29,674 nt of DNA, from positions 1 through 29,674 of IMG/VR virus record IMGVR_UViG_3300009425_000064. One strand, written 5' to 3'. Shown one piece after another: positions 673-25,714 of the stretch (within the stretch, counting starts at the first letter, position 1; every line of letters begins with the position of its first letter). Origin of the DNA: a virus. The position numbers and the translations under genes are program-made. The notes under the pieces are model-generated. The model made no database searches. It worked only from the letters and a program-made list of their open reading frames with translations, and was not told where the DNA came from.

Positions 673-680
673 GAAATTAG

Positions 681-714: not shown

Positions 715-717
715 GCT

Positions 718-725
718 TATCTTTG
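718..725 (+). promoter_or_regulatory. Bacteroidota-type promoter -7 element TATCTTTG
   Basis: TATCTTTG matches the Bacteroidota housekeeping sigma -7 consensus TAnnTTTG exactly, lies directly after the terminator and ends 15 bases before the ATG at 741. The same eight bases occur at 8727-8734 before another gene. I do not see a convincing -33 TTTG element at the usual distance, where the terminator stem lies, so the call rests on the -7 match and the position. It would start transcription of the tail module. Confidence 0.6.
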
Positions 726-740
726 TAGAAAAGAATACAG

Positions 741-1478: not shown

Positions 1479-2401
1479 TGGCTTATATAAATCAATATCA
1501 ATATTATACAAATAATGAGACTACTCCACAAGATGAAAATTGGGGGTCATATCAATATATTAGTTTAGAAGATATAATTACTAATTTTTTATTAATGTAT
1601 AATGGTAATCATTCTTTGGTTAATAATGAAGAAAGATATAAAGTATTGTTTCATGCAAAAAGAGCAATACAAGAATTAAACTACGATGCATTTAAAGAAG
1701 TTAAAGTATTAGAGCTTCAAATTAGTGATACCTTACGTTATGTATTACCATCTGATTATGTTAATTGGGTTCGTATCTCTTTGTCTTACAATGGTTTATT
1801 AAGACCATTAGTTGAAAACGTACAGATAAATAGTGCTAGTGCTTATTTACAAGATAATTCAGGTAATATATTGTTTGACCAAAATGGAAATATTTTAAAA
1901 CCTGAAAATTCAGAGTTTACAAAAGAAAGATTACAAAACCACCAAAGAACACAATATTTAAATCAAAACGCTCCTTACAATGGATATTGGGGATGGGAAG
2001 TTGATGGAGCATGGTTTTTTGATATGGCTATAGGAACGTCATGGGGATTAAACACAGAAACAGCTAACGCTAATCCTACATTTCGTATAGACAAAAAAGC
2101 AGGAGTAATAAATTTTAGTTCTGCTATGAATGACAAATTAGCTATATTAGAATATATATCTGATGGTATGGAAAATGGTGATGATTCACAAATTACTGTA
2201 AATAAAATGTTTGAAGATTATATGTATGCATATATAGAATATGCTATATTAAATAGTAAACTTGGTGTTCAAGAGTATGTAATTAAAAGAGCTCAAAAAA
2301 GAAAATCATCACTATTAAGAAATGCCAAGATTAGAGTAAGTAATATTCATCCGGGTCGCCTTATCCAAAATATGAGAGGTCAAGATAAATGGATAAAATA
2401 A
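1478..2401 (+). CDS. Putative tail ring/gatekeeper-type protein
   Basis: A 307-residue protein that starts inside the stop codon of the preceding gene and ends one base before the next ATG, so genes two to four look like one translated unit. The N-terminal half is helical (around ITNFLLMYNGNHSLV and YKVLFHAKRAIQEL), followed by LPSDYVNWVRISLSYNG, an aromatic-rich middle, and a basic C-terminus (HPGRLIQNMRGQDKWIK). This arrangement is what I remember for tail tubular or adaptor proteins (T7 gp11-like position) of crAss-like and marine Bacteroidota podoviruses. The structural role is supported by the context; the sub-class is an inference. Confidence 0.65.
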   Translation: MAYINQYQYYTNNETTPQDENWGSYQYISLEDIITNFLLMYNGNHSLVNNEERYKVLFHAKRAIQELNYDAFKEVKVLELQISDTLRYVLPSDYVNWVRISLSYNGLLRPLVENVQINSASAYLQDNSGNILFDQNGNILKPENSEFTKERLQNHQRTQYLNQNAPYNGYWGWEVDGAWFFDMAIGTSWGLNTETANANPTFRIDKKAGVINFSSAMNDKLAILEYISDGMENGDDSQITVNKMFEDYMYAYIEYAILNSKLGVQEYVIKRAQKRKSSLLRNAKIRVSNIHPGRLIQNMRGQDKWIK

Positions 2402-2402
2402 T

Positions 2403-5400
2403 ATGGCAAATATACAAAAGAATTTTATACAAGGTAAAATGAATAAAAGCGTTGATGAACGCTTAATTCCTAATGGTCAATATATAGATGCTTTAAATGT
2501 TAGATTAGGTTCTACCGAAGCATCAGAAATTGGTTCAGTAGAAAACTCTAAAGGTAATACAAAAATTACAACACTTACTTTTAGTGGAACTGAATTAAGT
2601 GCAAATGCTAGGTGTATAGGTGCTTATGAGGATGGTTCTAATGAAACTATTTATTTTTTTGTACATGACCCTTCTTTTACTGTAGGAACGACAGGTAAAC
2701 TTGATATGATAGTTTCGTTTGATGAACAAAACGATGTAACTACTTATCATGTTGTTTCAATGAAAGAGGGAGCAAGTGGTACAAATACTACTTTAAATTT
2801 TGATTCTAAATTTTTAATTCATTCTATAAATAAAGTTGAAGATTTATTGTTTTTTACAGACAATCTAAATCAACCTCGTTTTATTAATGTTAAAAGAAAT
2901 TATCAAGAACCTTTTAGTAACATAGATGTAATTACAGCAGAGTCTTTATTAGTTATAAAAAAACCACCTGCAGCAAGTCCTGAATTTTCTTTGTTTACTT
3001 CACCTCAAGAAAATAATTATTTAGAAAACAAACTTGTTTGTTTTGCATATCGATATGAATATCAGGATGATGATTATTCAGCTACATCACAATGGTCAAA
3101 ACCTGCGTTTTTACCTAAAACCTTTTCTATAGGTATTGATGATAAATTAAATAATGGTATGGAAAATGCTAGAAATGGCGTTTCTGTAACTTACAATACC
3201 GGTAGTTCTTTAGTAAAATCTATTGAAGTTTTATTTAAAGAGTCAAATAAAAATACTATAAACATAATAGATAAATTTAGTAAAGAAGAAAATGGTTTTG
3301 TAGATAATCAAGATGTAACGTTTGAGTTTGATAGCAATCAAATTTTTACAATTTTAAATTCTGACCAACTTGGAAGATTATATGATGCTGTACCTTTAAA
3401 AGCAAAAACACAAACTTTAATGGGCAACAGATTAATTTATGGTAATTATATTGAGGGATATAATTTAACTTCATCTAATGGAGAACCTATTAATTTAGAC
3501 TACACAACAACACTTGTAAGCAAAGCAATTGGATTAAGTGATGTAACTACTACATTATCAAACGGAACGTATACAATTGACACCACAGCAGGAACACAAA
3601 CAATAACCGATTCAATTGTTAGTTTAGATTTAACTGATTTTGATTTAGTTGTTGGAGCTCAAATAACGTTTGATATAAGACTTGTACATGCTTCATTTAC
3701 AGGAACTCCTGTTCCAAGTGAAACAGTAGCACAATTAGACTTATCATTTTCATTTACATTACCAACAAATTACAATACGCTTACTTCATTAGTAAATTCA
3801 ACAGAATTTCAATCAGCAGTAGGTCCGGGTCAGCCAATAGCAACATCATGTAGTTTAGGAACAACTTGGACAGATGAATATAACTGTTTAATGCCTAACA
3901 CTTTAAGTTCATTAACAGCTTATACTTCAGGAATAGGTTCAGTTACTTATCCTGCAGTTGGCGCAATGACAGCTACTGTTTCAGGAAATAGTATTATTGT
4001 ACAAATTCCTGCTATGCAATGGGTGGATAATACAGCAGCACCAACCGTAACAATAACAGAATATTTTAGTATTCAAACTAGCGAAGCAACATTTCAAAAA
4101 ATAAGCAATACAGAAAGTTTACATAGTAATAGAGATTATGCAGTTGGTATAGTATACATGGATGATTTTAATCGTTCATCTACAGCTTTACTAGCTCCTA
4201 ATTCATCAGTTCATGTGCCATGTTCAGTTTCAGATTTTAAAAATAATATTGATATAGAAATACCAACAAATATGCTCCCTCCTTTTTGGGCAAAAAGATA
4301 TAAGTTTGTTATAAAACCATCTGAAACTAGATACGAAACCATATATAGTAATTTGTTTATAAATGACCCTAATGCTTCAGGATATTGGTTTTTATTAGAA
4401 GGAGAAAATGTAGAAAAAATATCAGAAGGACAAAGACTTCAAGTTAAATCTGATACGTCAGGTGCGATTAATAATTGTGCTGTTGCTACAGTTTTAGAAA
4501 AAGTATCTCAGCCTGCAGGATTTATAAAGTTTGATTCTTCTTTTTCTTCTACTCAAGTAGATGCTCCGGCAGCAACTTATATGCGTATAGTTCCTAATGA
4601 TTTTAATGTAGTGTTAGATGAAGGAGCTGTTGAATTTAAACAAGCTGAACAGTGTACAGATATTTCAGGAGACTCTCCTATGGCTGCATGTTTAATCAAT
4701 CGATTGGATAGTTCATCATCTCAACCTTCCGGTTATTTATATAGTGATTATACTATTCCTGAAGGTAGTCGTATAAAACTATATTTTAGATTTAGACGTT
4801 TAGGAACAGGTGACGGTAACAAGAAATGTGAAAGAAGAATTTATGAATTAGATTTAGATTTAGTTTCTTCAGCAAACTATAATAATTTTCAAGAATGGTT
4901 TATTGGTGACAATATTGAATTAAGACTTGATGATGGTACATGGACAGGGGGAAGCACATCAGCAGGAAACCCTCCAACAAACACTTTATTAGGTAATCTT
5001 AACTCCGCTTTTAATGGTAGACCAACAGAAATTGAAGCGGGCATGAGTTATAATAATAGTATAACAACAAACTTTTTTAGATTTGTAAGAAGCGTTACAG
5101 ACAATGGATTATGGTTATGTGCTACAGGTACAGAAAGTTGTTCAGGTATTGGACAACAAAGTAGAAGACGTTCGTGTTCTAAAATTGAAGTAACTGTATT
5201 TAGAAGTGAGGATACTATAGTTTTTGAAAGCGAACCACAAGAAAGTTTGCCTGATGTGTTTTATGAAGGAGACCAAAGTTATCCTATTATTTCAACTACA
5301 GGTTTGCATGGTGGTGGAACAAATGCACAAATTCTTGCAGGAAACAGAACACAAACCTCAGCAACTTCAGGTAAAATACAAACAACATTATTTAATTGTT

Positions 5401-6911
5401 ATGCATTTGGTAACGGAGTAGAAAGTTTTAAAATATTAGATTCTATTGGAGGGCAAGAATTACAAGTTGGTAATAGAGTTACAACAACAGCTAATCAAGA
5501 ATACCAAGAAGCACATAGATTTGCCGACTTAACTTATAGCGGTAGATATAGTGATTTTTCAAATATTAATAAACTAAATGAATTTAATTTTAGTTTAGCA
5601 AATTATAAAATATTAGAAGATTCTTTTGGTCCTGTAGCAAAATTATATTGAAGAGAAACAGATGTTTTAGTTTTACAAGAAGATAAAATCTCATATGTAT
5701 TAGCAGGTAAAAATTTATTATCAGATTCTACAGGAGGAGGTGCTATAGCATCAGTTCCTGAAGTTTTAGGAACGCAAATAGCTAGAAAAGAAGTATATGG
5801 GATTAGTAACAATCCTGAAAGTTTTGTTTGCTATGGAGCTGATAAATATTTTACAGATGCTAAAAGAGGTGCTGTGTTACAAATGCGTGGTACAAGTATG
5901 CAAAATGAACAACTGTCTGTAATATCCGAAATGGGGATGCGTGGATTTTTTAGAGATTTATTTATTAATTCTTTTGACACACAAAAACTTGGCGGATATG
6001 ACCCTTACATGAATGAGTATGTATTGTCAAATAATTGTATTTTATTACCTGCTTCTGTACAAGAAGAAAATTGTGGAATATCTTTTAACTATGGAATTCT
6101 ATCTCCATCAACTCCACAAACATTTATAGTAAGACTTGGACAGCAAATAGGTCAAGTTTCAATAGTGTATACAACACCCGTTCTTGATAATAATACTACT
6201 TTTAAAATTACAGTAGATTACAATGGAGCTGAGGTTGTTAATACAGGTGATATAACAAGTGGAGGTACAGTAACTTTTGATAAAAATAATTTGCTTATTA
6301 ATACAGCTACAGTAAATGTAGTTGTTGTAGGAGGTAATGCACAAAACTTAGGAATGTCTGTTAGCTGTCCACAGGCTGACCAAATCACAGTAAAAACTAT
6401 TGTTATAACAAGTGACACAAGTTCAGGTGCTTTAATACACACATATTATGGATATAGTGATGCAGCTTTTTCGACATTACTAACAAGTCAATTTGTTCAG
6501 TTTGGAAATGGTGTAAATCCAATAGTTTCTAGTTTTGTAGAAGTTACAGGAGGTCAAGGACTTAACACAATACCAACAGACAGTTCTACAGTACAGTTAG
6601 GTACACTTTTCAAACCTTCAGATGATTATTTGTTTGACACTACATCAGATAGATTTGGATATTTGAGAAGTGCAACAAATTACAATAACAATTCATCAGA
6701 TATTACAAGTCTATTAACATCTATTGATAGTGCGTCAAATTGGCTAACTACAAATACTACATTAGCACCGTCAAAATATTTTGGTGAATTTACAATGCCA
6801 AATAATGACTTAGATTTTTTATATTTGGTATATGATTTAAGGTCAACTTTTCAATTACAAATGTGTTTTTCACCTACAGGGGAACAAGACGCTTGTTGTG
6901 GATGTGTATAA
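2403..6911 (+). CDS. Tail nozzle/'muzzle'-like structural protein, interrupted by in-frame TGA
   Basis: The reading frame runs from ATG 2403 to TAA 6911, 1502 residues if the TGA at 5649-5651 (codon 1083) is read as an amino acid. The downstream part is in the same frame, has no start codon until 5874, and encodes the most conserved-looking segment (VLVLQEDKISYVLAGKNLL, then YGADKYFTDAKRGAV at about 1140-1160), so this is one protein and not two genes. The N-terminus (FIQGKMNKSVDERLIPNGQY) is the pattern I know from large nozzle or stabilization proteins of crAss-like phages, probably beta-propeller rich and analogous to T7 gp12. The C-terminus ends in a cysteine cluster (CCGCV). Without readthrough the product would be 1082 residues and lose this conserved part. 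Function is inferred from the family pattern and gene order. Confidence 0.75.
5649..5651 (+). other. In-frame TGA inside the nozzle gene
   Basis: The codons around it read AAA TTA TAT TGA AGA GAA ACA. Coding continues in the same frame for 419 more codons without another stop. TGA is one transition away from TGG, and Trp fits the local sequence (KLY-x-RETDVLVLQ), although I cannot be sure which residue homologues have here. The following base is A, as in known leaky UGA sites such as that of phage Qbeta. Confidence 0.9.
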
Positions 6912-6922
6912 ATTAAAATAAA

Positions 6923-7879
6923 ATGGGAATAACAGTAAATTATTATTTAGATACAAACGATTTTCAAACAGCCACAGCTGTTTATACAGACAATGCTTTG
7001 ACTGTATTAGCTCCTGATGGATGGTATTCTTATAGTAATAGATGGCGAAAACAAACAAGTGGTGTTTTAGGTTCTGTTGGGGTATGTCCATCTTGTAATC
7101 AAGCATGTTCTTCATCACCTTTTTTATCTGCTTATTCTTATTTTATGGGAAGTAATACTGAAGGTGCGGGTGTTTACAATTTAACAATTGATACAGGTTC
7201 TGCGGCAGGAATTAATAGAATGTTTCTTGGTCGAAATGCTAGTGATTGTTATGGTATTCAAATAGTACATGACTCTGCTGTAGTTAACAATTGGATTACA
7301 GGTGAAGGATATGAATCACCGGGAAATAGTGATGCAATATGGATGGGAGATACTACTGTAGCAGCAGGAACTGTGTATACTAATCAACCATCGTTTACAT
7401 GGAATGGAACATCTTGGGTACAGTCTTCTACTAATGTAGGTTATACAGTTAATAGCACAACAAATTTTACAACAACACAAGACCTATATAATCTAGCAGT
7501 ATTTTCAAAAACTACAGCTGTAAATACAACAGTACAAATTACAGTTTTTATTCCTCCTTTTTCAAGTTCAGGAGTTAATACAAATGTTTTATTTTCTCCT
7601 GTATGTTCTGCATTATTAATTGCAACACCTTATAATGCTACATCTTATCCTAATCCTGCTGATGCATGTAATGCTACAGGAACAACTGATAGTGTTTTTA
7701 TTGCTAACGCTACATCAGGAAATATATCTACAGATATAATACCTGTTAAATATTCTTATGCATTTACAAATACATTTGGAACTACTGCAGTTGGTGTAGG
7801 ATATTATAAAACAAGTCAAGGATATATGCAAGTAGATAGTAATGGAGTAGTAATCGATGTAGGCAGTTGTCCTCCTTAA
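6923..7879 (+). CDS. Putative tail-associated structural protein with Cys cluster
   Basis: This 318-residue protein is rich in Thr, Ser, Asn and Val and looks like a beta-structured surface protein. The N-terminus contains ATAVYTDNALTVLAPDGWYS and a cysteine group CPSCNQAC at about 54-61; the C-terminus ends in a short YYKTSQGYMQVDSNG repeat-like strand and GSCPP. It is 11 bases after the nozzle gene, with an A-rich leader and no Shine-Dalgarno sequence. The position between nozzle and the next tail gene suggests a tail fibre, spike or adhesin-like component. I do not recognise a specific family and host-binding is only a guess. Confidence 0.6.
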   Translation: MGITVNYYLDTNDFQTATAVYTDNALTVLAPDGWYSYSNRWRKQTSGVLGSVGVCPSCNQACSSSPFLSAYSYFMGSNTEGAGVYNLTIDTGSAAGINRMFLGRNASDCYGIQIVHDSAVVNNWITGEGYESPGNSDAIWMGDTTVAAGTVYTNQPSFTWNGTSWVQSSTNVGYTVNSTTNFTTTQDLYNLAVFSKTTAVNTTVQITVFIPPFSSSGVNTNVLFSPVCSALLIATPYNATSYPNPADACNATGTTDSVFIANATSGNISTDIIPVKYSYAFTNTFGTTAVGVGYYKTSQGYMQVDSNGVVIDVGSCPP

Positions 7880-7889
7880 AATTTAAAAT

Positions 7890-8720
7890 ATGAGTTGTAC
7901 AAATCAAACAGTAAGTTATAGCGATGGCGTAAAAGGGTTTCCTTCTTTTTACTCCTATCATCCTAACTATATGATAGGCATGAATAATTACTTCTATTCA
8001 TTTGACAAGGGTAATCTTTACCGTCATAACAGTAACGATAGAAGAAACAGTTATTATGGTGTAGATTATAGTTCTACTATTACAAGTGTATTTAATGAAT
8101 CACCTTTAGAGAATAAATTATTTAAAACTATTAATTTAGAGTCTGACGCTTCATGGTCTGTAGATTTTACAAGTGATATCCAATTTACAGGATATATAAA
8201 TAGCACATCGTTTGTTAAAAAAGAAGGTGCGTGGTTTGCGTATTTAAGAACTGAAGGTTCTGTTGCAGGAATAGGAACACCTATTGACAGCCAACAATAT
8301 CCTTTACGTTCTATTATGGGTATAATGAACAGTACAGCTAGAGGTGGTACTATAGCTAATCCTATTATACAGTTTAGTATTGGTATAAATTCTAGTTTAG
8401 CGTCTTATATAAATCCACAAATAAATATAAATGATTTTATTTATTGGAGTGATTTAACGGGAAATAACGAATTAACATATGCAGGAAAAATACAATCTAT
8501 AGCTTACTCACCTATTAATGGTGTTGTAAGTATTACAATTGACGCTGCCGGTGCGGTTGTTATACCTGCGGGAACATTATATTTTGCAGCTGTAAAAGAC
8601 CAAATTGCAGAATCATATGGTATATTAGGACACTATGGTAAATTTAAATTAACTAATAGTGATATTACAGCTACAGAGTTATTTGCTGTAGAGTCAGATG
8701 TTATGAAAAGTTATCCTTAA
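7890..8720 (+). CDS. Putative tail structural protein
   Basis: A 276-residue protein, ten bases after the previous gene. It contains GFPSFYSYHPNYMIGMNNYF near the N-terminus, SPLENKLFKTINLESDASW at about 71-89 and FVKKEGAWFAYLRTEG near 109-124. I remember this order of motifs (FYS-P--M-GMN-, FKT-N-E, FVKKEG-W-AY-R) from tail proteins of crAss-like and other Bacteroidota phages, encoded next to the nozzle gene, where it may be a detached part of the nozzle assembly. No transmembrane segment or enzyme motif is visible. The gene ends in TAA and is followed by a promoter for the next gene. Confidence 0.65.
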   Translation: MSCTNQTVSYSDGVKGFPSFYSYHPNYMIGMNNYFYSFDKGNLYRHNSNDRRNSYYGVDYSSTITSVFNESPLENKLFKTINLESDASWSVDFTSDIQFTGYINSTSFVKKEGAWFAYLRTEGSVAGIGTPIDSQQYPLRSIMGIMNSTARGGTIANPIIQFSIGINSSLASYINPQININDFIYWSDLTGNNELTYAGKIQSIAYSPINGVVSITIDAAGAVVIPAGTLYFAAVKDQIAESYGILGHYGKFKLTNSDITATELFAVESDVMKSYP

Positions 8721-8726
8721 AATTAG

Positions 8727-8734
8727 TATCTTTG
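8727..8734 (+). promoter_or_regulatory. Bacteroidota-type promoter -7 element TATCTTTG
   Basis: An exact copy of the TATCTTTG element at 718-725, here in a 20-base gap and ending six bases before the ATG at 8741. It matches TAnnTTTG. The very short distance to the start codon would give a leaderless or nearly leaderless message. No clear -33 box is visible in the upstream coding sequence. Confidence 0.5.
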
Positions 8735-8740
8735 TGTTAA

Positions 8741-9151
8741 ATGAAATTTAATATAAGGGTACTTAAGGAAAACGACTATGAAGATATATTAGTCGGATGG
8801 TGGAAAGATTGGAAATGGATTCCTCCTGTAAAAGATTTTTTACCTCTTAATGGCTTGGGTGGTATTATGGTAGAGTGGAATGATATACCTGTTTGTGCGG
8901 GTTTTATTATTCAAACTAATAGTAAAGTAGCATGGATAGAATGGATTGTATCTAATAAAAATTTTAAAGAAAAGCTTCATAGAAAAGATGCTTTAAATTT
9001 ATTGGTACAAACATTAACTGATGTAGCTAAAAAAACAGGTAGTACATATGCGTATACAATACTTAAAAGTCCTTCTTTAATAAACACATACAAAAATAAT
9101 GGTTATTTAGGAGAAGAACAAAATATAAACGAGATGATAAAAAAATTATAA
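8741..9151 (+). CDS. GNAT-like acetyltransferase family protein
   Basis: A 136-residue protein with the layout of a small GNAT fold: an N-terminal strand and helix (IRVLKENDYEDILVGWWKDW), a central strand pair (VCAGFIIQTNSKVAWIEWIV), a helix that would follow the acetyl-CoA loop (about 84-101) and a C-terminal segment YTILKSPSLINTYKNNGY that resembles the usual GNAT ending. The typical Q/RxxGxG/A acetyl-CoA loop is not clear, so enzyme activity is uncertain. Such genes occur within structural modules of marine phages. A copy of the TATCTTTG promoter lies directly upstream, and the stop is one base before the next ATG. The substrate is unknown. Confidence 0.55.
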   Translation: MKFNIRVLKENDYEDILVGWWKDWKWIPPVKDFLPLNGLGGIMVEWNDIPVCAGFIIQTNSKVAWIEWIVSNKNFKEKLHRKDALNLLVQTLTDVAKKTGSTYAYTILKSPSLINTYKNNGYLGEEQNINEMIKKL

Positions 9152-9152
9152 T

Positions 9153-10088
9153 ATGGCGTTAGCAACCACAATTTTAGCAGCAAGTGCATTAGCAATGTCT
9201 ATAGGAACTACTGTGGCATCAGGTGCACAAGCAGCAAAACAACGAAGAATTCAAGCAGGTGCTGAAGAAGATGCAAACAGATTTATGAAAGATGCAAGAG
9301 ATAAGCTTGAAGTAAACGAATATGACGAGTTAAGTATTAACAGTTTAGTTTATGACAATCAAAGAGAAGAGCTTTCTAAGGTTGGTGCAGCACTTATAGA
9401 AAATGCACAACAATCAGACAGACCAAATATGGGTGCTCAATCTATTGTTGATGCAGTCAACAAAGCCAATACATCTATAACTGAAAAAGAAGTAAACGAA
9501 TTACAAGATTTAGATTTAGTTCAAGCTGAAGAAGCTACAAGAAAAAGTGATATAGGCATACAATTAGATTTAGGCGAAGTTCAAGGTGCACAAAAAGCCG
9601 CAGCTGATGCAGGAGAATTAGCACAAAAATATAAATCAGATTTTCTGACTCAACTTCCTCAAACAGCAATGGCTGCAGTTTCTACACTTGCTCCTGTTTT
9701 TGGTAAAAATGCTCAAACAAAAGGAATAGAAGGTTTTGAGTTTGGAGGTAAAACAGGTCTTGAAGGAATACAAGCTAAGTTTGGTGACGATGATTTTATA
9801 AAATCTTTAGATGGTAAAGGGTTTGGTTCTATACCATTTGAAAATTTAAAGGACATAGGTAAGTTAAAGTCTAATGCTTTAGATGATTATGTAAGAAATA
9901 ATTTATCAGGTGGAAATTTAAAATATTTAATGGATAATCAAACAGGTAATGCTAATCCTTTTACACCAACTACAAGTAAACAATATAGCCAAACTTTTAA
10001 AGATGCAGGGTTAAATAGTGGTGTAATGACAAATTCTGACAAAATAGCAGAGTTAGAAGCTGCATTAGCAAAACTAAAGAAAGGATAA
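9153..10088 (+). CDS. Internal virion/ejection protein with N-terminal hydrophobic segment
   Basis: A 311-residue protein starting with a long small-residue hydrophobic helix (about 2-26, TTILAASALAMSIGTTVASG), followed by charged, Ala- and Gln-rich helices (about 27-165) and a low-complexity Gly-rich region. It ends in a short Leu/Ala helix (KIAELEAALAKLKKG). Small size, membrane-insertable N-terminus and position just before two larger helical proteins match the T7 gp14-gp15-gp16 ejection set, where the smallest member enters the outer membrane. The same role is inferred here. The start follows the previous stop by one base and the stop precedes the next ATG by one base. Confidence 0.65.
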   Translation: MALATTILAASALAMSIGTTVASGAQAAKQRRIQAGAEEDANRFMKDARDKLEVNEYDELSINSLVYDNQREELSKVGAALIENAQQSDRPNMGAQSIVDAVNKANTSITEKEVNELQDLDLVQAEEATRKSDIGIQLDLGEVQGAQKAAADAGELAQKYKSDFLTQLPQTAMAAVSTLAPVFGKNAQTKGIEGFEFGGKTGLEGIQAKFGDDDFIKSLDGKGFGSIPFENLKDIGKLKSNALDDYVRNNLSGGNLKYLMDNQTGNANPFTPTTSKQYSQTFKDAGLNSGVMTNSDKIAELEAALAKLKKG

Positions 10089-10089
10089 T

Positions 10090-11979
10090 ATGGCAACTAA
10101 TTTTGGATATATAAGAAAAGACCAAGACGCTAGAGTAAATTGGCAAGAGGTTGGTAAAAACGCTAGTGATACTATACAAGCTGAAATTGATAGAAGAGAA
10201 ACTATTAAAGCTGATATAGATGCAGATTCTAATGCGTTAGACACACAAATATATGAAAACATTGATTCTGATAATGCAGACCTTGCGTCTGAAATGTTAA
10301 GTGTTGCTAATTTAACTTCAGAAACTAGATTACGTCAAGATAAGAATCTAAAAAACGGTTCTTTAAGCCTTAAAGACTACACTATTCAAAGAAATAACCT
10401 TAAACAAGGTGTCGCTAATATTAGCGAAATGAATAAATCTAAAATAAAAATAGATACTGAGTTTCAAGCATTAGTTCAAGCCGGAACAATAAATCCACAA
10501 TCAGTTGCTGTAAGAGCATACAATGAACAATTTGAAAACCTAAACAATTTTGGTATTCAGTTAGATGAATTTGGAAGTCCATATTTAGCTAAAAGAATTA
10601 AAATAAAAGATGAGGAGACAGGTGTAATTAATGAAACTTTTTCTACCGACCCTAATGATATATACAGTATAAAAGGTGCAAGAGCAAACATGGGTCAAAT
10701 ATTAAAACAACAAGATTTTACTAAAAATGTACAAGGTTATGTAGGGTTAGCAGGAAAAACTTGGGTGGAAGCAGGAGGTCAGTTTAAAACTGTAGATGAC
10801 GCATGGCAAAACGAAAACTTTAGAAAAATAATTGAAGCTGAAATTAGAGCTGATTTAACTAACCCTGATTTTGCGTCAGGATTTGCAGGTCAGTATTTAC
10901 AAGGTTATGAATATGCGTTTTTAAAAGGAGATAGTAAAGCTAATGCTAATCAAATTCCTTTAGTTCAAATTAATGGACGTTGGACCTTTGATGCTGACAG
11001 TAAGCAAGGTAAAAAACTTGTTGACGAGTCAGTTACTAAGTTAACAGAAATGACTAGAGGAGGAATGTCTAAAAAGGAAACTCCTTATTCACCGAGTGAG
11101 TTAAAAGGATATGGAGAAATAGGTGACGAAAAAGATAATATAGAAACTACAGCTAAGTTAATAGGTGATATATATAATGGGGATGTACAAGAGCTAAAAT
11201 CTGCATTAGTTTATTTTGAAGGGAAAGAGAGTAAAATTACAAATTTAGAAGTTAGTGATGATGGTAGTAAGTTTTCATATGATGTTAACACAGAAAATGG
11301 TGGAAAGGTTACAAGAACATTAGACAGAAACTTTGGACCTGAAAATTTCTTAACTCAAATGAGCAAACAAATTGGTACATATGATTTAGCTCAATTAAGA
11401 GGTACAAAAGCATATGATTCTTGGAGTCAAAGAAATGATGGAAACTATACTAATCTACCTAAAACCACAAGCTTCTCGGGAGCTTATACCGAAGCAGCTA
11501 CAGAGGTTGAGAATCTTCTTACTAGAGAAGGCTTAAATGAAGATGGCACTACGGTTGTATCTGCACTAGATAGTTTTAATAAAGCATATGATAAGGATAC
11601 ACCTTTGGGCGATAAAGTATCTATTATTTCACAAGAATTCTTAGAATCAAAGATAGAAAATGCTCAAGTTGAGCAAGGTAGTGATGGATATCTATATATA
11701 GAGATAGATGGTACTACTACAGGACCTATTGTAATTAAAAACAGTCAAGGAGGAAAACCTGTTTCAAAAATAATTAGTGACATACAACAAGCTCGACAAA
11801 ATGGGAAAAGATATACTCCTGAAATGTCAGGTGTTACTAAAGAGGAATTTGTCGCTGCTTTAAATATAGATAAAGTTAAATTTAATCTAGATGATGCTTG
11901 GAATGGTGGAAAAGGTAACCCTGAGGAGTCAGCAGGAGGATATGAGAACAGCCGTGTCAATGGTAGTCAGTTTAATTAA
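10090..11979 (+). CDS. Internal virion/ejection protein (T7 gp15-like position)
   Basis: A 629-residue, mostly helical hydrophilic protein with no signal peptide or membrane segment. The N-terminus (FGYIRKDQDARVNWQEVGKN) is a pattern I remember from the second ejection protein of Bacteroidota podoviruses. The C-terminus is Gly- and Asn-rich (about 604-629) and looks disordered. It lies between the small hydrophobic ejection protein and the giant last one with one-base and 18-base gaps. A role in the internal core and DNA-ejection tube is inferred from order and composition, not from a catalytic motif. Confidence 0.6.
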   Translation: MATNFGYIRKDQDARVNWQEVGKNASDTIQAEIDRRETIKADIDADSNALDTQIYENIDSDNADLASEMLSVANLTSETRLRQDKNLKNGSLSLKDYTIQRNNLKQGVANISEMNKSKIKIDTEFQALVQAGTINPQSVAVRAYNEQFENLNNFGIQLDEFGSPYLAKRIKIKDEETGVINETFSTDPNDIYSIKGARANMGQILKQQDFTKNVQGYVGLAGKTWVEAGGQFKTVDDAWQNENFRKIIEAEIRADLTNPDFASGFAGQYLQGYEYAFLKGDSKANANQIPLVQINGRWTFDADSKQGKKLVDESVTKLTEMTRGGMSKKETPYSPSELKGYGEIGDEKDNIETTAKLIGDIYNGDVQELKSALVYFEGKESKITNLEVSDDGSKFSYDVNTENGGKVTRTLDRNFGPENFLTQMSKQIGTYDLAQLRGTKAYDSWSQRNDGNYTNLPKTTSFSGAYTEAATEVENLLTREGLNEDGTTVVSALDSFNKAYDKDTPLGDKVSIISQEFLESKIENAQVEQGSDGYLYIEIDGTTTGPIVIKNSQGGKPVSKIISDIQQARQNGKRYTPEMSGVTKEEFVAALNIDKVKFNLDDAWNGGKGNPEESAGGYENSRVNGSQFN

Positions 11980-11997: not shown

Positions 11998-14900
11998 ATG
12001 AACGAAGAAGCTTTTAAACAACTTTACGAAAGTTTTGTTAATACAGGATATGAAGGAGATAGACAAATGTTTATAGACTTAATGTCATCTAATGAAGAAG
12101 CTTTTACACAAGGTTATGACGCTTTTACATCTACAGGATATGCAGGAGATAGAACTGCGTTTGCTAATTTAGTAGGTGTTAACGACCCATTAAAAAAAAA
12201 AGTATCAGAAGAACCGGTGGTGGAAAAAGATACTACAGAAGAACCGGTGGTGGAAGAAAATGCAGATTTGTCAATTGGAGACCCTGCGGATTCCTTAAAA
12301 AAGTTTGGACCAAACTCATTAGGCTATAATCCTGCTGTAGAGGGTGACGATAAAAAAACTACAGAAGCAAGAAACAAACTAAACCTTTGGAATGCAGAAA
12401 CAACTAAATTACTAAATCAATTACCTGAAAAATATGAAGACTTATCTGACAAGGATAAAGAACTATATGAAGATATAGAGGGAGCACAATCTGCTATATA
12501 CCAAAGGGATGGGTATCCTTTAACAGAGGAGGAGTCTGCGCTGACAGAAGTTAGCACTCCTGACGATATGCCTGTGCTTACTAAAGAAGAAACAGAATTT
12601 ACAATTAATAACCTATTTAAAGATTATTTATTAAATAAAGCCGATAAATATCAAACCCTATCAGATAATTTTTATGACCAATACCAAAATGAGTCTGAGA
12701 AGTATAAAACAGAAAATTTCTACATAGAAGAATATGGAAAGAAAGAAGGTGTTAAAATATATGAAGGTGTAAAAAAGAAAATTGAAACAAAAGAAAAAAG
12801 CGATTATAAACTTAATTTAAAATCAGATTTACAAAATAAAGGGATAAGAACACTTGACCAAATGTTTGATGAAGAAGATGAGTTAGAATTAAAAAATAAA
12901 ATTTCATCTATAATAACTCCTGATTTTGTTGGTCAAAGTGACAATACAGCTACAATAGAAAAAATGAATCAAGAGTTTAGTGAGTATGGATTAATATTTA
13001 CTAAATCATATTTCGGGGGTGGTATGCATGTGACTACAGCTAATGGAAACGCTACAATAAAAATAGATATAGATTCAAATTTTTCCGATATATCTGAAGC
13101 AAATGATTTAAAAGATTTTGTTTTATTAAATGCAAACCATGAAAATAAAGATTTTAAAGAAGAAGAAGAGTTTTTATCTCAATCTCAGCGTGCACAAGAA
13201 ATGAGAAAAGGTGCTAGAACAAATAATGATGGTACTCAATCATCTCATTTAATGGCTACATTTGAAGAAGACGGTAAGTATATTGTAGCTCCTACTTTAT
13301 TTCCTAAAGATGATAACAATCAATCTAAATATTCTTCTTCATGGGTTGAATTAAAAGGACTTGAAGCATTAAATTTAGCTAAAAAAAGAGGTGAAGTGTT
13401 TGAGTTTAACACAGAAGAAGAAGCTGATAATTTTGCAAGAGGTTCATGGAAGGAAGTAAGTTTAATTGATTTAGAAGCAAATACTTTTTACAAAGAAAGA
13501 GGATTAAATTATTTTCCTCTTCACGATGCAGAAAATGAATACGATAAACTTAATGATGAAATTAATTTTATTAATACTATAATTGAAGACCAACCACTTG
13601 AAACTTTTGGTCGAAGTAATGTACCAAAAGAAAATACTGCAGGTTTAACAATGCAACTAACTGATTTAAATAAAGCAAATCAAAAAAAATATGCTCATTT
13701 ATTTAGTGGTGGAGTTATAATAGATGATTTACAACAATATCAAAAAGATTTAATTGCAAAAAGAACTGTATTAAATGGAACTTTAGATAGAGAAAATATT
13801 AGAAGAACAAGAGAAGATTTTGATGTTGTATTAAGAAAAGCATTTGATGAAAAATCAACAGTAGCTAAAAACAGAGTTATTGAAATTGTTGAACAAGAAA
13901 AAGCACTAGATAAAGAATCTTTATTAGAATTTCAATCTAAGGTTTATAATATTCCTAAAATAGCATCTACAATAACATTACCAAGTCAACAACAAAACGC
14001 TGTTAATCATTATACAGGTTATTTAAATCTTCAAATGGAGAAAAAAATGGCTAGAGCAAAATATGAGAATGCTTATTTGTATTTCAATAGAATGGAAAAC
14101 AAAAATGTACAAGCGTCCGGCTATGAAGATAACGAATTTAAAGGGTTTTTTCTAGAAGGTAGCAAAGGTATTGAACAGGGTAATTCATTAAATGCTATTT
14201 TACAATATAGTTTGGGAATGGATTTCTTAGACTTTGGAAGTGCTACGGTTGACCCTAATGATGTTAAGTCTGTAGCGAGAGCTATTGTAGAGGGAGTAAG
14301 AAATAAAGCGTCTAAAGGCGATACAAGAACTATGTTAGCATGGAACAATGCTAACTCATGGGAAGAGATATTCAATGTTATACAAAACGACCCTGCAGAG
14401 TGGGCGTTGCAATTGTCGGCTAATAGTATAGGACAAATGTTAGAATACGGAACGCAAATAGTTACAGTTTCAGGAGCAGCAGGAGCAGGAACAGGAGCGG
14501 GTTATGGTCTTTTAGGTGGTAATCCCCTAACAGTTGGAGGAGGTGCTTTAACAGGTTTTGGATATGGTTTAAGAACAGGTTTTGCTGCAACAGCTTACGC
14601 AATGGAATATACCAATGCAGTAATGGAAACCATGACTAATATGGGTTATGACCTGACTAATCCTATGGATGTAGAAACAGCTTTGATGGATGGGGCGATG
14701 TGGAAAAAAGCTAGTGCACAAGGTCATGCAAGAGGTATACCAATTGCTACTGTTAGTTATTTTACAGCAGGTTTAGCAGGCAAACTTTTAAGTGCAACTA
14801 ATCCTGTTATTTCAGCTAGAGGAGCTGTAAATGTAGGAGCAGCATTATTTGGAGAAGCAGCTATAGGAGTAGGTGGTGAAGCATTAAGTGAAGTTTCTGC

Positions 14901-17900
14901 ACAAGCAAGTGAAATTATGTTTCAAACAGGAAGAACTACATTTGATGGTAAAGAAATAGTTGCAGAAATGGGAGGAAGTTTCGGAACTCAAACTTCTAAT
15001 GGTGCTGTAAATATGATGCTAATAAATAGAGAATCAAAACAAAAACAATTTTATCAAAATCTTACTAATCCTGATTTTATAGCTAATTATACTGAAGCTA
15101 CAGACGAACAAATAGTGGATTATATTAATAAAATGATTAAAACAGGAAGAATTGATGAAGCTCGAGGTCAAAATGTTAAGAAAAATGTTGGTATTAAAAG
15201 AAATGCTGTAGAGTTAGCACCGGATGCAGCTCCACCTGTAATATCAAGATTGATGCAGTTAATAAATGCTAAAGAAATACTAAGTTCTGATGTAAATAGA
15301 AGAGAAATATATAAAGACAAACTAAAAGAAATAAATTTAGAAATAGCTAGTACTGTTGTTATGGGAGAAGTCTCTAATAAAACAACAGATTTAACTAGCG
15401 GTCTAGCAGGTAATGATGTTGCTAAAATTAATACTTTTAATAGACGACCTCCTACATTTAGAGTTGGTAACATGGCAACTGAAGATGAAAATGTATTTAA
15501 AAAAGCTATAAATAAAATGACCGATTGGCGTACAGCTGTTGGTATACAAGTTTTTGATAATGAAAGTTTAGGAAAGGAATTGTCAACTATAGTAGCTCAA
15601 AAAATAAATTATTTAAAAAAGAAAGAAGCAGATATGTTAGGGATAGACCTTGACCCATCTGAATTAATTAAAATAGAAACAGATGCCGATACAAAGCAAG
15701 AGACAGGCGAGGTGGTTAGCAGCCAACAAACGTACAATTTTCAACAAATGGAAGAACAAGTATCCGGTGAAAATCAAGAATCTCCCGGAGAAAGTAACCA
15801 AGAAGAAATAACTGATTTACAAAAAGCAAGAAATGGTGATGTAGAAGCACAAAAAAAGTTTGAGAAGTATGGAATTGAATGGTAGTTTAAACCTACTTAT
15901 AGATTTGTAGGAAAATCTGAACTTGATGCTCTTAATAATAATGAAACTATTGAAGGTAAAAATAAATCTGTTGGTGTAGATGTTACAAACTCAGAAGAAG
16001 TTACGACAGCTACAGATGCTGAATATAGAGTAACTTATAAAGGAGATGTAATAGATTCTGCTTTACCTGACAATAAGCTTCGTATGAAAAATGATGTTGA
16101 TGGTCATATACAAGGAGGTTATACACTAGCAGATGTGTCTGTTATAGAAAAAATTAATCCTGACGGAACTTTTGAAATTGTTTATGAATCAGAAACAACT
16201 GAAGATGTAGACATAGAAGCTGTAGAAAGATTTGAACAACAACTAGATGCAGAAGAATCAGTTAATTTTAGATTGAAAGATGATGCTGTAACTGAACCAA
16301 GTAGAGAAAAAGTTGAATCTATTACACAAAAAATTAATGAACTTGAAAGTGATAACGTAAATGTTAAAATTGAAAGAGATGAAGAAAGTGTATCTATAGA
16401 TGTTAATGAATTAAATAATAGAACAGATAACAAATTAAATGAAATATCTTTTGATGTTGTAAATAATTTACCAACTTCATTTACTATATCTGACCAACTT
16501 ACAACAGGAAACGCTACAAATCCAAATACAGGAAACACAATAGATAATTTAAAAGGAGCTATAGGGTTTAATGGTACGGTAGGAAATGAAAACGCTGCTT
16601 GGGCAAGTACTACAGAAAAGAATGCTCAAGGAATGATTAATAAAGCTCAAACTGTATATAATAACAATAAAAAAGTTTATGATAATTTTTGGAACGAAAA
16701 CCCTGAATACAATGGCTTAGTTATGGTCAATGTAGTTAAAATGGCTGAAGATGGTATTGTTTCTAATGAAGCTATGTTTAGAGTGTTAGCTGACAATCTT
16801 ACTAAGTTACCTGAAGAAAATAGAGTTAAAGCATTAAAAACTTTAAAAGAAGAAATTATTAGTAGAAGAGACAAGGCAGAGAAAAAGAAACCCTTTAATG
16901 ATATAATAGCATTGTTAGAAGCTGACAACATTCAATCAATTGATAATGTGGTAGCTCCTGAATTTATTAATAAACTTTCGTTAGGTGCAAGGGTTAATCT
17001 TATGAATATAATAGGGTACGGAAAGCCTAATAAACCGGGTGAAACTAAAAATGCAGGTACAATTAGTGAAAATTCTACAGTTACTAGAGCTTTAATGGAG
17101 AATCAAGATAAATCTAATAACAAATTAGTTAACATTGGAAGCATTGCAGAAATTATTACAGACCCACAATTAAAAAATGTGTCTGAGTTAAGTATAATTG
17201 GTGTTGTAGGTGTAGATGTTTTAAATCCTGAAGTTCTTAAATCTAATCATCTTAACTATCCGTTTGCACCTAAAGGAAAATCAATAGGAGTTTTATCTAA
17301 TCCGGTTGCAATGGAGAAAGCTTATCCTATAGCATATGAAAAAGCTTTAGGAAGTTTAATAGAAAAAGAACAAAAACCTTCTGAAAAGAAAGTAAAAGGC
17401 AAAAAAGTTAAAAAACCTAGCACAAAAGTTACAGGTAAACAATTAAGAACTAATCAAACAGGAATTGGTATTGGTATAGCTTCTAAAGATTATATAGGTG
17501 CATTAGCTAACTACGACCAAAGTAATATAAATAAACTTGTAAACTTCATTAACAAATCTTTCCCTAGTGTAATGATGAGTGTAGATAGTGAAGTGTTTCA
17601 GCAAGTTATAAATGAACCCGGTACTCAAAAGTATTTAAAAGGTAATGAAATAATATATGGTGTTACTAAAAATGGAGATATATATATAAATCCTGATGTA
17701 CATAATACTGAAAGCTCTTTATATAATACAGCAATACATGAGATGGGTCACATTTGGACTGACTATTTACAAACAACTCGTAAAGGTAAACGTATATATG
17801 CAAGAGGTGTAGAGTTAATTAGCAAAACAGATGAATATAAAAAACAATTAAAAAAGTTTGATGGCGATTCTAAAAAAGCAGCTGACGAAACTATGGCTAT

Positions 17901-20900
17901 TTTAATAGGTAACGAGGGAGAAACTATTGCTAATTCAACATTACTTTCTAAATTTAAAGAATGGCTATTTGGTATGTGGAAGTATATCAAGAGTCAATTT
18001 AAAATGTCTAAAGATTTAACTGAACAAGAGATTCAAGACATGAATCTTGATAAGTTTATTGGAACTGCACTAGCAGATATATTTAGTGGTAAAGAAATAG
18101 CTTTAACTGATATACAAAAGAAAGCTTTAAAAAATCCTGAATTAGCATTTAAAAAAGGTTTATCAACAGAAGACATTATCTATCGAGGTAGACAATCAGG
18201 ATTTACACAAAATCAAATAATTGAAGTATTAGTTAGAAGAAATAAATTATCTAAAACAGACGCTAAAAAAGCAGTAGAGGATATGGCTATAAACATAAAA
18301 GTACCTCCTGCGTTTGCTAATATAGAGGGTGGTATAAATGTTGGTAGAGAAATCCTGCAAGAACTAGACCAAGTTCGTGAAGCTAGACAGGCAAAAGAAA
18401 AAGCTGAAGGTAAACGTACTAATAATAAATCAGAAAGAGAAGCAAGAAAAAAAGAAATTGAAAACAATAAAAAATTTAAAAGTTTACCTGAATTAGATAG
18501 ACAAAATTTAATTATTGCTTATGATAAGATGTTAGGAAGCAAGGCAGGTGTGCAAACACAAAGAGAAATAAATGAAATTCTTTCTGAATTAAGAGGTCGT
18601 AAAAAACAAGACAAAGTTAATTTAGCTACTAGAAATAAATTACAAAACGTAATACAAGCACTAATTCCTAAGTCAGATAATATTAATAAAGCTAAGTTAG
18701 ATAGATTAATAAAAAAGATGGCTAAGGTAAATGAAGATAACTTTAGAGCAACTGTATTAGAAGTTCAAGATATAGCAGATGTAATTATAGCAAAAGATAT
18801 TAAAGATTTAAGAAATAAAATTTCAGATTACGTTAAATCCAAAAGTACAGCTAAAAAAAGTAATAAGAAACCTAAAGCAGGAACTGTTGAGTACAGAGGT
18901 ATGGAGATTTTTAAAGCTGTAGATAGATTGATGCAGATGTCACCTGATGAATTAATTTCTAAACAAGAGGAACTTGCTAAAAAAGAATCAGAAATCGATG
19001 AAGCTTTGGCTGACGATTTAAATTCTAAAAATATTTTAAATTCAGACCAAGTTACGCTTTTAGCTGAAGTAGAAGCTTTTTCAAGAATGGGGAATATAAA
19101 TGAAATGTCCTTAGCTGAACTCGAAGACATGTTTCAAGCTTTAAAAGAAGAGACAAAAGAATCTAGAAAAAAACTTTTAGATAGAATTGATAACAGAAGA
19201 AAAGAAGCTGCAGCATATGAAAAACAAGCCGATAAAGCTATTTTTGCAGACAATTCTTTTTTATTCGATAAAGATGGTAGACCATTAACTCCTGAAGAAA
19301 TTAATAATAATAGAAAAAATATATTAACTTCTTTAAAAGATAATGGATTTGTAAAAACTGCAAGAGAATATGCACAACAATTTTTTAGTGGATATAAAAA
19401 TGTAGGTGCAAGTGTGAATCCTGTTACAACGTTAAGACAATTTTTTGACGGTTTATTATCTCATACAGGAACAGTATTTAATATGCTTGATGGTCGTAAA
19501 GGAAAGTTCTTTACTAAAGTGTTTCAAAAAAGATTAACAACTTCTGATTTTAATAGAGAAGAAGGTATAAGAAATAGTAATACTGAATTAGATAACATAG
19601 CAAAAAATGCCGGTATAACTAAAGGCAGAGTCAAAGGAGTACCACAAGAAATATACAGTAAACCAAATTTAGAATTAATAATTGAAGGTCAAATAAAACT
19701 TTTTAATGCTGACATGTTAATGAGTATGTATGCTTATAGTAAAAATAATGACACAAGAAAACGTCAGATAGAACAAGGCATAACAGACGAAATTATAGAA
19801 AAAATACAAAAACATTTAGGAAATAAATTAGTTGCATATGTAGACGGTGTTGTAGAATGGTTAACTAACACTTATTTTGAAGGTGTTAATGATGTGTATA
19901 TAAAAAATAATGATGTATCTCTTGAAAAAATACAAGAGTATTTTCCTGTAGCTGTACAGTTTGATTCAAGAAAAAGTCAACAAGCAGATTTACAAAACCC
20001 TAGTAACTACGGTTCAGCATTTAAAGGTAACTCACCGAGTAGTGTAAAAACAAGAGGAAACAAAGGACCTCTTGATTTAAATTCTAGTTTTACAAATAAA
20101 TTAAACAATCATATTCAAGAGATGGAAAGGTATAAGGCTTATGCCGATACTGTTTCTTTATTTAATAAACTTTTGAAAGTTCCATCTATAGCTAATTTAT
20201 TAGATGCAACAGGAAGTACAGACCTTGTTAATAAATTATTAAATTATTCTATTAATGGTACGCTTGGTAATTCTACAAAAATGAATGGTTTAATAAATTA
20301 TTTAATGGGAGGGTTTATCTCTTATACACTTAATTTAAAATTGATGCAAATACCTAAACAAGCGGTATCATCTATTATGGCGTTTCAAAATTTTTCTACA
20401 GAACAATCCGGAATTCTAGGTGCATTAGGAAGAGCTAGAAAAAAAGGTGGAATAACAGGTTTAGCAGCAAGTATACCTTCACTTCCTTTAGATGGATTAA
20501 TGTTTGTGTTTAGATATGCTCAAGTTTTAGCTATGACATCTTTAGGAAAAGAAGGTGGAATTAAAACAGCTAAACGAATATCAGCAGGGTTTGAAAAAAG
20601 AATGAATGATGCTCTCAAAGGAGCTAGTATAGCAGAATTAGAGTCAGGTCAAAAATTAGGATTGAATACACAAGTAGCTATTGGTGAAAAAGGATTGTCT
20701 TTTTTAATGAAATTGCCGGGATTGAATAAAACAGAACTTACACCAAGACAATTAAGTGAAAAATTAAATGCTTTTTTAGGAGCAGGTACTACAATAGGAG
20801 ATATATTAGGTGTGCTTGGTTATTTAGCTACATATAATCAAGACATAGCAAATGGAATGACTGAAGTAGATGCTACCATGAAATTTATTGAATACAACAT

Positions 20901-21708
20901 GACACAACAGTCTAGAAGAGATATGGATAAAGGTGGTCTTCAAATGGAAGGTGGCTTATTAAGATTGTTTACTACATTTGGAAGTACAATGCTTTTACAA
21001 TTGAATGAAAGTGCAATGAGAGCTAGAAACATCAGTAGAAGTCTTGCTAATCAGGGAGAACAAATTCTAAAAGGTAATTTTAAAGAAGCTTTTTCTAATG
21101 AAAATAAAGTAAAACAAGAAGATGTCAGAGGATTATTATTATCAGGAGCTATAGCAAATATGTTATTTGCTGCGGCATCAGGAATGGTTATTTTAATGAG
21201 AGGTAGTGATGAAGAGAAAGAAAAAGTTTATGACAAAATAAAATTAGCTCAGTATGGTTCAACACAAATAGAACAAATTCCTGTACTAGGTGGTACAATA
21301 AATGCATTTATTTTTGAACTTGTAAATGGAAGAAAAATGACAGCTTTTGAAAGAAATCAAACTACTGTTGAACCTGTTGAAAGAATAGTTCGAGAAATAA
21401 TGCGTGAATTTGAAAATGGTGAGATTTTAAACGGTTTAAAACCTGCAACAGAATTTGGAGTAGGATTTCAATTTGATTTCTTTGAAGGTTTATATAATAT
21501 AATAATGAATGGAGATGAAACCGAAACATATATTTATGATATGTTAGGTGTGCCGCAATCACAAAGACCTGAATCAGGAAAAAGAAAATCAGGAGGAGAA
21601 AAGAAGGTGCAAAAAATAGACAAAACACACTTGAAAAAATATAATCCTAAACTTTACCAAAAATTATTAGAGTACGAAAGAAAGAGAAAAAAACTTAAAA
21701 ATAAATAA
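11998..21708 (+). CDS. Giant multidomain ejection (polyvalent) protein with HEMGH metallopeptidase, interrupted by in-frame TAG
   Basis: The frame runs from ATG 11998 to TAA 21708, 3236 residues if TAG at 15883-15885 (codon 1296) is read through. Parts in order: two 30-residue repeats (2-61), an acidic linker, a conserved-looking domain at about 400-485, a Gly/Ala-rich hydrophobic stretch (about 820-960), the TAG, a YRFVGKSELDAL domain, then a zinc-peptidase site HEMGH (His1914, Glu1915, His1918) with Glu1964 a possible third ligand in DETMAILIGNEGE. A long helical part and a Lys-rich end follow. The size and last position in the late block match giant ejection proteins that carry enzyme domains into the cell (T7 gp16 position). 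The peptidase may cut the cell wall or host proteins; its substrate is unknown. Coding after the TAG lacks a start codon until 16084. Confidence 0.75.
12001..12180 (+). repeat. Two tandem 30-codon repeats at the start of the giant protein
   Basis: Residues 2-31 and 32-61 of the giant protein repeat NEEAFxQxYxxF, TGYxGDR and a final FxxL pattern with exactly 30-codon spacing. The DNA copies are diverged, so this is a duplicated protein domain and not a recent DNA duplication. Similar short repeats are found at the N-termini of large Bacteroidota phage proteins, from memory. Confidence 0.8.
12206..12255 (+). repeat. Perfect 20-base direct repeat in the acidic linker
   Basis: CAGAAGAACCGGTGGTGGAA occurs at 12206-12225 and 12236-12255, a 30-base period, encoding EEPVVE twice. 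The GC content is well above that of the surroundings. It lies just after an A10 run (12192-12201) in the same linker, so this short stretch should be prone to copy-number change. Confidence 0.9.
15883..15885 (+). other. In-frame TAG inside the giant ejection gene
   Basis: The codons read ATT GAA TGG TAG TTT AAA CCT, and the same frame continues open for 1940 codons. It falls just before a recognisable domain (PTYRFVGKSELDAL). TAG is one transition from TGG and one from CAG, so Trp or Gln are both possible original residues. Confidence 0.9.
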
Positions 21709-23202: not shown

Positions 23203-23739
23203 CTAATCATATATCCCATTGAATATAGTATTTAATTTTTTTTCTATTACCTTTTCTGTATTAAGTTTTGTTCGAGTTCTTATTATGTCAAAAATAGTTT
23301 TAAATCTTTCTTCTTGACTTGAAGTTTTTTGTAATTGCTTTTTAAGAGTCTCTATCTCTAAAGATAACAATTTATTTTTATCTTCCAAATTCAAACATCT
23401 GTTTTTTAACTCGTCAGGCTTCAATATATTAGGTGCAGGGTCAGTTAAATTATACAATTTCACACACATATCGTACTTTTTTTTAAGTTCTTTATCATGT
23501 AACATTAAAAATTGTATTGACTTATAGTAATGCATGACAGATGCATGACTCTTTAGGTTTAAATGCAATGCAATAGATTGATAGGTTGCTTTTTTATCTC
23601 TCATTAATTTTGTAAAAACCATGCGAGCATCTACTAAATTTCTAACTCTTCCTTTTGTGTCTAGACTAATGTTAAAAACTTGTTTTATAATTCTTTTATA
23701 TATGCTAACTTTTGTAGATTCTTTGTAGTATTGATTCAT
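23203..23739 (-). CDS. DnaA domain IV-like DNA-binding protein
   Basis: A 178-residue protein. Residues 20-80 follow the DnaA domain IV pattern: RVRNLVDARMVF (31-42), a helix-turn-helix in TYQSIALHLNLKSHASVMHYYKSI (52-75), where the DnaA signature around DHTTVLHAxRKI corresponds to SHASVMHYYKSI. It lacks the AAA+ ATPase. The C-terminal half has a coiled coil at about 112-140. Stop is TAG; the start overlaps the upstream gene by 35 bases. It might bind DnaA-box-like sites at the phage or host origin, or act as an early repressor; this is inferred from the domain only. No classical TTATCCACA box was seen in the window. Confidence 0.6.
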   Translation of the reverse strand: MNQYYKESTKVSIYKRIIKQVFNISLDTKGRVRNLVDARMVFTKLMRDKKATYQSIALHLNLKSHASVMHYYKSIQFLMLHDKELKKKYDMCVKLYNLTDPAPNILKPDELKNRCLNLEDKNKLLSLEIETLKKQLQKTSSQEERFKTIFDIIRTRTKLNTEKVIEKKLNTIFNGIYD

Positions 23740-24079
23740 TTGGTTTTAAAATTTGATTTGAATTAATATAATCTAAGTATGTATCAACTTTAATAGGATT
23801 AATATCTATAAATATAGGAAATTCATTTGGTTGATTTATATATTCAATTTCAAAAAAATATGGTTCTTCGTATCGTAATACTCCGGAAATCATTTGTGTA
23901 TATCCTTCTACTTTTGGAAGAAGATGTAAATTACCTTCTAATAAAACTATTATAGGTATGCTATAATCTTGCGGCATATCTCTCAACGCTTCTGCTACTT
24001 CATCTTCATATTCATAATGACTTACATCATCTTGAATTAAATCTTCAATCTCCTCTAAAAACCTCTGTGATGCATCCAT
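23705..24079 (-). CDS. Conserved-looking early protein, unknown function
   Basis: A 124-residue acidic protein with a helical N-terminus (FLEEIEDLIQDDVSHYEYED) and a beta-rich remainder (IPIIVLLEGNLHLLP, PYFFEIEYINQP). No catalytic motif, cysteine cluster or membrane segment is visible. It overlaps the VRR-NUC gene by 35 bases at its start and the DnaA-like gene by 35 bases at its end, which ties it to the early operon. The codon usage and composition match its neighbours. I do not recognise the family. Confidence 0.6.
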   Translation of the reverse strand: MDASQRFLEEIEDLIQDDVSHYEYEDEVAEALRDMPQDYSIPIIVLLEGNLHLLPKVEGYTQMISGVLRYEEPYFFEIEYINQPNEFPIFIDINPIKVDTYLDYINSNQILKPNESILQRIYKS

Positions 24080-24287: not shown

Positions 24288-24481
24288 CCGTTTTTTCTAT
24301 AGTCTTCTAAAAATCCAATAAAAACTATAACATTCATACTAACCGATGATATAATTTCTAGTAAATCATGGTAGTTATGGATTGATAAGTGTATGTGTCC
24401 TACTACCCAAAAAGGTATTGCAAGGTTTTGACTTATCCATGTAACTAAAAATCTAATGAATTTCATAACCCTGTATTCCAT
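24284..24481 (-). CDS. Small membrane protein
   Basis: A 65-residue protein with two hydrophobic segments, about 8-30 (IRFLVTWISQNLAIPFWVVG) and 43-58 (IISSVSMNVIVFIGF), and a charged C-terminus. It could span the membrane twice. Its ATG directly follows the TAA of the helicase gene; a second start at Met6 is possible. It resembles small two-helix proteins found in many phages, and I considered a holin or a fragment related to low-affinity iron permease-like proteins. Neither is well supported, and lying in the early block speaks against a holin. Confidence 0.5.
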   Translation of the reverse strand: MEYRVMKFIRFLVTWISQNLAIPFWVVGHIHLSIHNYHDLLEIISSVSMNVIVFIGFLEDYRKNG

Positions 24482-25714
24482 TTACAAATTTAAGAAATCT
24501 CTTTTAAAATGTTTTAAAGTATAATCCTTCTTACGAGTTACTGCCTTGTATATTTTATTTTCTATTCCTTTGTCAGAAAATATCCAATAAACATTATTTT
24601 TTAATCTATTTTTAGTTGTCATTCTATCTCTCGATTGCTAATAGGAGGTGGCAGAAAAATCAATGTTATAGTAAACTAACGCATCGGCTTCCTTTAGACT
24701 AATACCTTCCCTCCCACTAACAATCTGTAATGCTATACTTTTATTTGTCTCTTTGAAGACGCTTAATTCCGTTGAAATGGTTTCCCCATAAACTTCCTTA
24801 ATAGCATTTAGTTCTTCCTTAAACTTATAAAAGATAGCAATCTTTTTATTCGCAAATTTGTTTTTAATAAATTTTGCTTTAGATAAGTCTAGAACCATTG
24901 AGTTGCCGCTTTCAAATTTAACTGTTCCTGAATAAATTTGATGAAGTTTTGACATAAGCTTTACAGGGGTATCACCCATCAAGATTTCTGTTTTTCCTTC
25001 TATCACTAAATGTTTTTTTAATTTGTTTGCTAACTCGTAAGTTGATTCTTTTAAGCTAACATACAAAATTTCTTCGATTGTTTCTACTTTAAATCCTGCG
25101 TTTTTTTGAGAAAAATTTATTGTGTAAGGTTGCATTTTATGAATTATATTTTCATGACCTTTGGAATAATCTCTAATTTGCAAACCTCCTATTGGTTTTA
25201 CTACTACCCTTACATAGTCATCAGAAAATCTGTAAAAGTTTTTATATTTAGAAAATGGATTGTTTGGTATTCCATAGACTTGATGATACATCTGACTAAA
25301 AGACTCAGGTGTTGGTGTTCCTGATAATAAAATCACCATTGGTTTTGACTTCTTTATTAATTGGCTTACTTGCTTTGCTCTTTTACTTGGTTTAGGGAAA
25401 GCTCCCATAGAATGAGCTTCATCACAAACAATTACATCCCATTTAGTATTTGGAATTTTGTGAAGACTTTCATAATTAATTACTAATAATTTATAACCGG
25501 GATTTAAAAGTTTATAATCACTTTCAATACTTGAAATAGCTTTTTTTTTAGTAACAAACAAAACATTTTTTGGATTTACTTTACTAGCAATACCTAAACT
25601 TGTTAATGTTTTCCCTGTCCTTACCTCCATAGCAAGATAAACAAAACCCCTTGTTAGAAGGGTTTGCTTACCAATTTTTATAATGGTTTTTTGATAAGGT
25701 CTAAGCTCTAGCAT
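24482..25714 (-). CDS. SNF2-type DNA helicase/ATPase, interrupted by in-frame TAG
   Basis: The frame runs from ATG 25714 to TAA 24482, 410 residues if TAG at 24640-24638 (codon 359) is read. Motifs: Walker A RTGKT (32-36), DEAH (98-101), SGTP (131-134), IAIFYKF, then IVSGREGISL and NIDFSATSY-x-QSRDRM as motifs V and VI. The TAG is directly before Gln in motif VI, where related phage helicases have Trp, and 51 more codons follow (ending TLKHFKRDFLNL). A protein ending at the TAG would lack motif VI and its arginines, so it should not be an active ATPase. The enzyme probably remodels replication or recombination intermediates with the VRR-NUC nuclease. The TAA lies next to the following ATG. 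Confidence 0.85.
24638..24640 (-). other. In-frame TAG at motif VI of the helicase gene
   Basis: On the minus strand the codons read GCC ACC TCC TAT TAG CAA TCG AGA GAT. The peptide SATSY-x-QSRDRM is motif VI of SNF2-type phage helicases, in which I remember Trp at x (SATSYWQARDR). This is the clearest of the three cases because the expected residue is known. A TGG-to-TAG transition is the simplest explanation. Confidence 0.9.

Follow-up and report, generated by a model that had tools for sequence, protein, structure and literature searches.

TAG is read as glutamine in some crAss-like phages (genetic code 15, PMC9523058). In plant viruses, UAG followed by CAR-YYA has been described as the TMV-type readthrough motif (PMC3542737). 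Helicases of the SNF2/ResIII type within superfamily 2 (phrog_62) are found in environmental phages, among them a Manatee Spring podovirus (MW202828) and Nitratiruptor phage NrS-1. Here we analyzed a virus record of 29,674 bases, referred to as the window, in which a helicase gene of this type carries an in-frame TAG.

Besides the SNF2/ResIII-type helicase, which lies on the minus strand, the window codes for a muzzle protein of the crAss type, a giant protein and a primase-like protein. Judged by the muzzle protein, its nearest annotated phages are a Manatee Spring podovirus and phages of Flavobacterium, Cellulophaga and Tenacibaculum. In a megablast search of the phage collection, the initial 25 kb of the window gave no match. 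The features considered in this study are as follows.

24480..25714, minus strand: SNF2/ResIII-type helicase gene, 410 codons if the internal TAG is read through
24638..24640, minus strand: in-frame TAG in place of an invariant TGG (Trp359), just 5' of motif VI; TGG in 80/80 relatives
24605..24637, minus strand: motif VI, codons 360-370, QSRDRMTTKNR, immediately 3' of the TAG
5649..5651, plus strand: TGA interrupting gene 2403-6911 for the muzzle, a virion structural protein; a near-identical contig has GGA here
15883..15885, plus strand: TAG within the giant gene 11998-21708, located in a variable linker; the gene is a single ORF in relatives

The helicase gene and its internal TAG

The TAG at 24638-24640 on the minus strand was confirmed in the sequence. 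The helicase ORF runs for 358 codons up to this stop and then remains open for 51 further codons until a TAA, which would give 410 residues with readthrough. Given the off-frame stop frequency of the window, the chance of a 51-codon open stretch is about 0.6%, and the frame is therefore an interrupted real gene rather than a chance reading. The translated product matched ResIII (1.8e-11) and SNF2-rel_dom (4.5e-9) over their cut-offs, Helicase_C under its cut-off (0.00076), and phrog_62 (9.7e-55). With these matches to N- and C-terminal helicase domains, the predicted product is an SNF2/ResIII-type superfamily 2 helicase.

The first-pass annotation had placed the TAG just before QSRDR and had assigned the replaced residue to motif VI as its tryptophan. 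The former is correct, as QSRDRMTTKNR directly follows the stop. This segment aligns with SNF2 motif VI, for instance QAMDRAHRLGQ of INO80, and in this weak match Q360 and R364 fall on the Gln and the first Arg of the motif. The replaced residue is indeed a Trp in the relatives, but Trp359 is the residue directly before motif VI, which starts at Q360. In the window contig, all of the motif VI residues (Q360, R364 and R370) sit beyond the stop. The annotation had further stated that truncation would remove the arginines needed for ATP hydrolysis; motif VI with R364 and R370 is lost as claimed, but the position of the second canonical arginine (Q+7) is occupied by Thr in 81/81 sequences. An invariant arginine, R370, is found at Q+10 instead, and from the alignment it may substitute for the second canonical arginine. 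On the general biochemistry of superfamily 2 helicases, losing everything from Q360 onward would be expected to inactivate the helicase.

Comparison with helicase relatives

The comparison set consisted of 80 IMG/VR loci carrying the helicase at 65-93% identity. At the position of the TAG, every relative has TGG, and none of them contains an internal stop in the aligned helicase gene. Residues Y358, Q360, R364 and R370 are invariant across the alignment. Apart from the TAG, no private change of the window was detected at helicase columns that are invariant in the relatives. TGG is retained throughout the set and no internal stop occurs in it. The TAG is thus shown to be a single-base nonsense change that only this contig carries and that arose very recently.

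The age of the change is indicated by the codons on its two sides. Relative to L002, its closest relative, the window shows 11 synonymous and no nonsynonymous codon differences in the 51 codons after the TAG, and 76 synonymous and 29 nonsynonymous ones in the 358 codons before it. The pattern after the TAG implies that the tail was under protein-level selection until very recently and, hence, that the stop is very recent. Searches of IMG/VR with exact DNA patterns spanning the helicase stop revealed no near-identical contig.

Two further stops in the window

For the TGA at 5649, a near-identical contig was available. Contig L122, in another IMG/VR record (G006), differs from positions 1-11779 of the window by 3 bases (99.97% identity over 11,779 bases), and one of the three differences is the TGA itself, which is GGA in L122. 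At the second difference, 10828, more distant relatives agree with L122 against the window, and the third, at 11703, could not be polarised. In the 80 muzzle loci compared, Gly or Ala stands at the TGA position, and no stop was found in the muzzle gene of the relatives in 117,611 aligned codons. For the helicase and muzzle genes together, the relatives have no stops in about 150,000 codons. A natural split of the muzzle protein into two genes, prompted by two structural features under the phage matches, was dropped, as the elemoF record holds one 4482-base gene and a neighbor overlapping its start. The idea that all three stops arose through one G-to-A mechanism at Trp codons was also dropped, because the muzzle change is GGA/TGA.

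No relatives of the giant protein emerged from peptide-pattern scans, and its gene was instead traced within the contigs of the helicase relatives. Four relatives carry it as a single ORF of 2938-3311 codons, and MW202828 also has it as one gene. The linker around the TAG at 15883 does not align with the relatives, so the original codon is not readable there; in the 66 codons after this TAG, the same frame continues with the coding signature of this phage. A search of IMG/VR with exact DNA patterns spanning this stop yielded no near-identical contig. The giant protein (11998-21708, about 3240 codons) is without a Pfam or PHROG match. Its identity to the closest relative is about 41-53% depending on the segment, compared with 88% for the flanking muzzle protein and 93% for the helicase.

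Origin of the stop codons

A reassigned TAG, as with TAG = Gln in some crAss-like phages, has a precedent in those phages (PMC9523058), and the muzzle protein of the window is of the crAss type. However, TAG terminates the genes 23203-23739 and 23705-24079 no more than 3 codons from the TAA or TAG ends of their relatives, and TGA terminates four other window genes at the end points of their relatives, one of which runs about a dozen codons further in some relatives. Since TAG and TGA still end genes where the genes of relatives end, neither codon has been reassigned, and this comparison of terminators already refutes a reassigned TAG. In addition, the residue replaced is Trp rather than Gln, just two such TAGs occur in 30 kb, and no suppressor tRNA was found. 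No tRNA gene was detected in the window (a fragment), in G006 or in the scanned stretches of the relatives, although a suppressor tRNA could come from the host. We consider reassignment to have practically no chance of being correct. Functional readthrough or host nonsense suppression, which would yield 358- and 410-residue forms, is very unlikely as well, although the frame after the stop is conserved and CAA follows directly. This CAA had been taken as a TMV-like readthrough context, but it encodes the conserved motif VI glutamine (CAA in 30 and CAG in 50 relatives), and the sequence CAA TCG leaves the CAR-YYA motif incomplete. The stop is conserved in 0/80 relatives, so that both stop conservation and the 3' context of programmed readthrough are missing, and one of the two further stops is another codon, TGA, with a sense codon in the near-identical contig. 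Together with the termination of neighboring genes by TAG and the lack of tRNA genes in the stretches scanned, these results do not bear out the proposal that an active phage would need readthrough. A phage population in an unusual host that efficiently suppresses both TAG and TGA, and tolerates sparse, scattered nonsense codons in essential genes, seems more improbable still. Fixation of the stops in the population would imply strong nonsense suppression by the host, for which we found no support here. A naturally shorter, active helicase ending at residue 358 is scarcely credible either: nothing but the ORF itself speaks for it, whereas none of the 80 relatives ends at this point, the invariant Q360, R364 and R370 would be lost, and purifying selection acted on the tail until very recently.

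The TAG in the helicase gene is probably a base error in the assembly consensus, and all three stops are private nonsense changes in one contig, for which we infer consensus errors as the most likely source. An error is favored because the TGA at 5649 is GGA in a contig that is otherwise almost identical, and because position 10828 also speaks against the window. Likewise, the TGG of all 80 relatives, the absence of amino-acid differences after the TAG, the stop-free muzzle genes of the relatives and the use of TAG and TGA as ordinary terminators speak for this explanation. With a consensus error, the real phage population would most likely keep the Trp codon and make the full 410-residue helicase, and no recoding mechanism is needed. 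Should a particle truly carry the TAG, translation would halt after residue 358, and the product, without motif VI, would probably be inactive. Scaling 3 differences per 11,779 bases to the whole window gives about 7.6 expected changes. The nonsense share of random single-base changes in these genes is 6.2%, so that about 0.5 stops are expected in the window, and at least three would occur about 1% of the time (Poisson). Since the window was brought forward for its stops, the latter figure is not strong evidence against error, but it is compatible with a truly defective variant. The stops would then be real mutations of the defective genome that was sequenced, which would be either non-viable or complemented by intact phages that share its cell. 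We regard this as possible but rather unlikely. The three stops in one contig exceed what the estimated error rate predicts, and the two testable genes are free of stops in the relatives; however, the rest of the window is intact, with no frameshift and, at the invariant columns of the helicase, no further private change, and just 3 of 11,779 bases separate it from the contig lacking the muzzle stop. Under either reading, error or defective variant, the TAG is a nonsense change private to this contig and has no function.

Hence, the TAG had been observed correctly in the first-pass annotation, but the functional reading given to it is not supported, and most likely it reflects a sequencing or assembly error or a dead mutant and not a novel use of the genetic code. 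Before readthrough or recoding is invoked for isolated in-frame stops of metagenomic phage contigs, such stops should be compared with relatives and with near-identical contigs.

Comparison with known systems

The window resembles the code-15 crAss-like phages (PMC9523058) in its crAss-type muzzle protein and in-frame TAGs. It differs from them in that Trp is replaced, TAG still serves as a terminator, the stops are few and no suppressor tRNA was found. TMV-type readthrough (PMC3542737) shares with this locus the UAG followed by CAA. In contrast to that motif, which comes from plant viruses, the six bases here are unfinished (CAA TCG) and the CAA is a conserved Gln codon. The window protein also resembles the SNF2/ResIII helicases of environmental phages: it aligns with them across 99% of its length, with 66% identity to the MW202828 helicase and 33% to that of NrS-1, and it is distinguished from these relatives by a stop at residue 359 that occurs in the window contig only.
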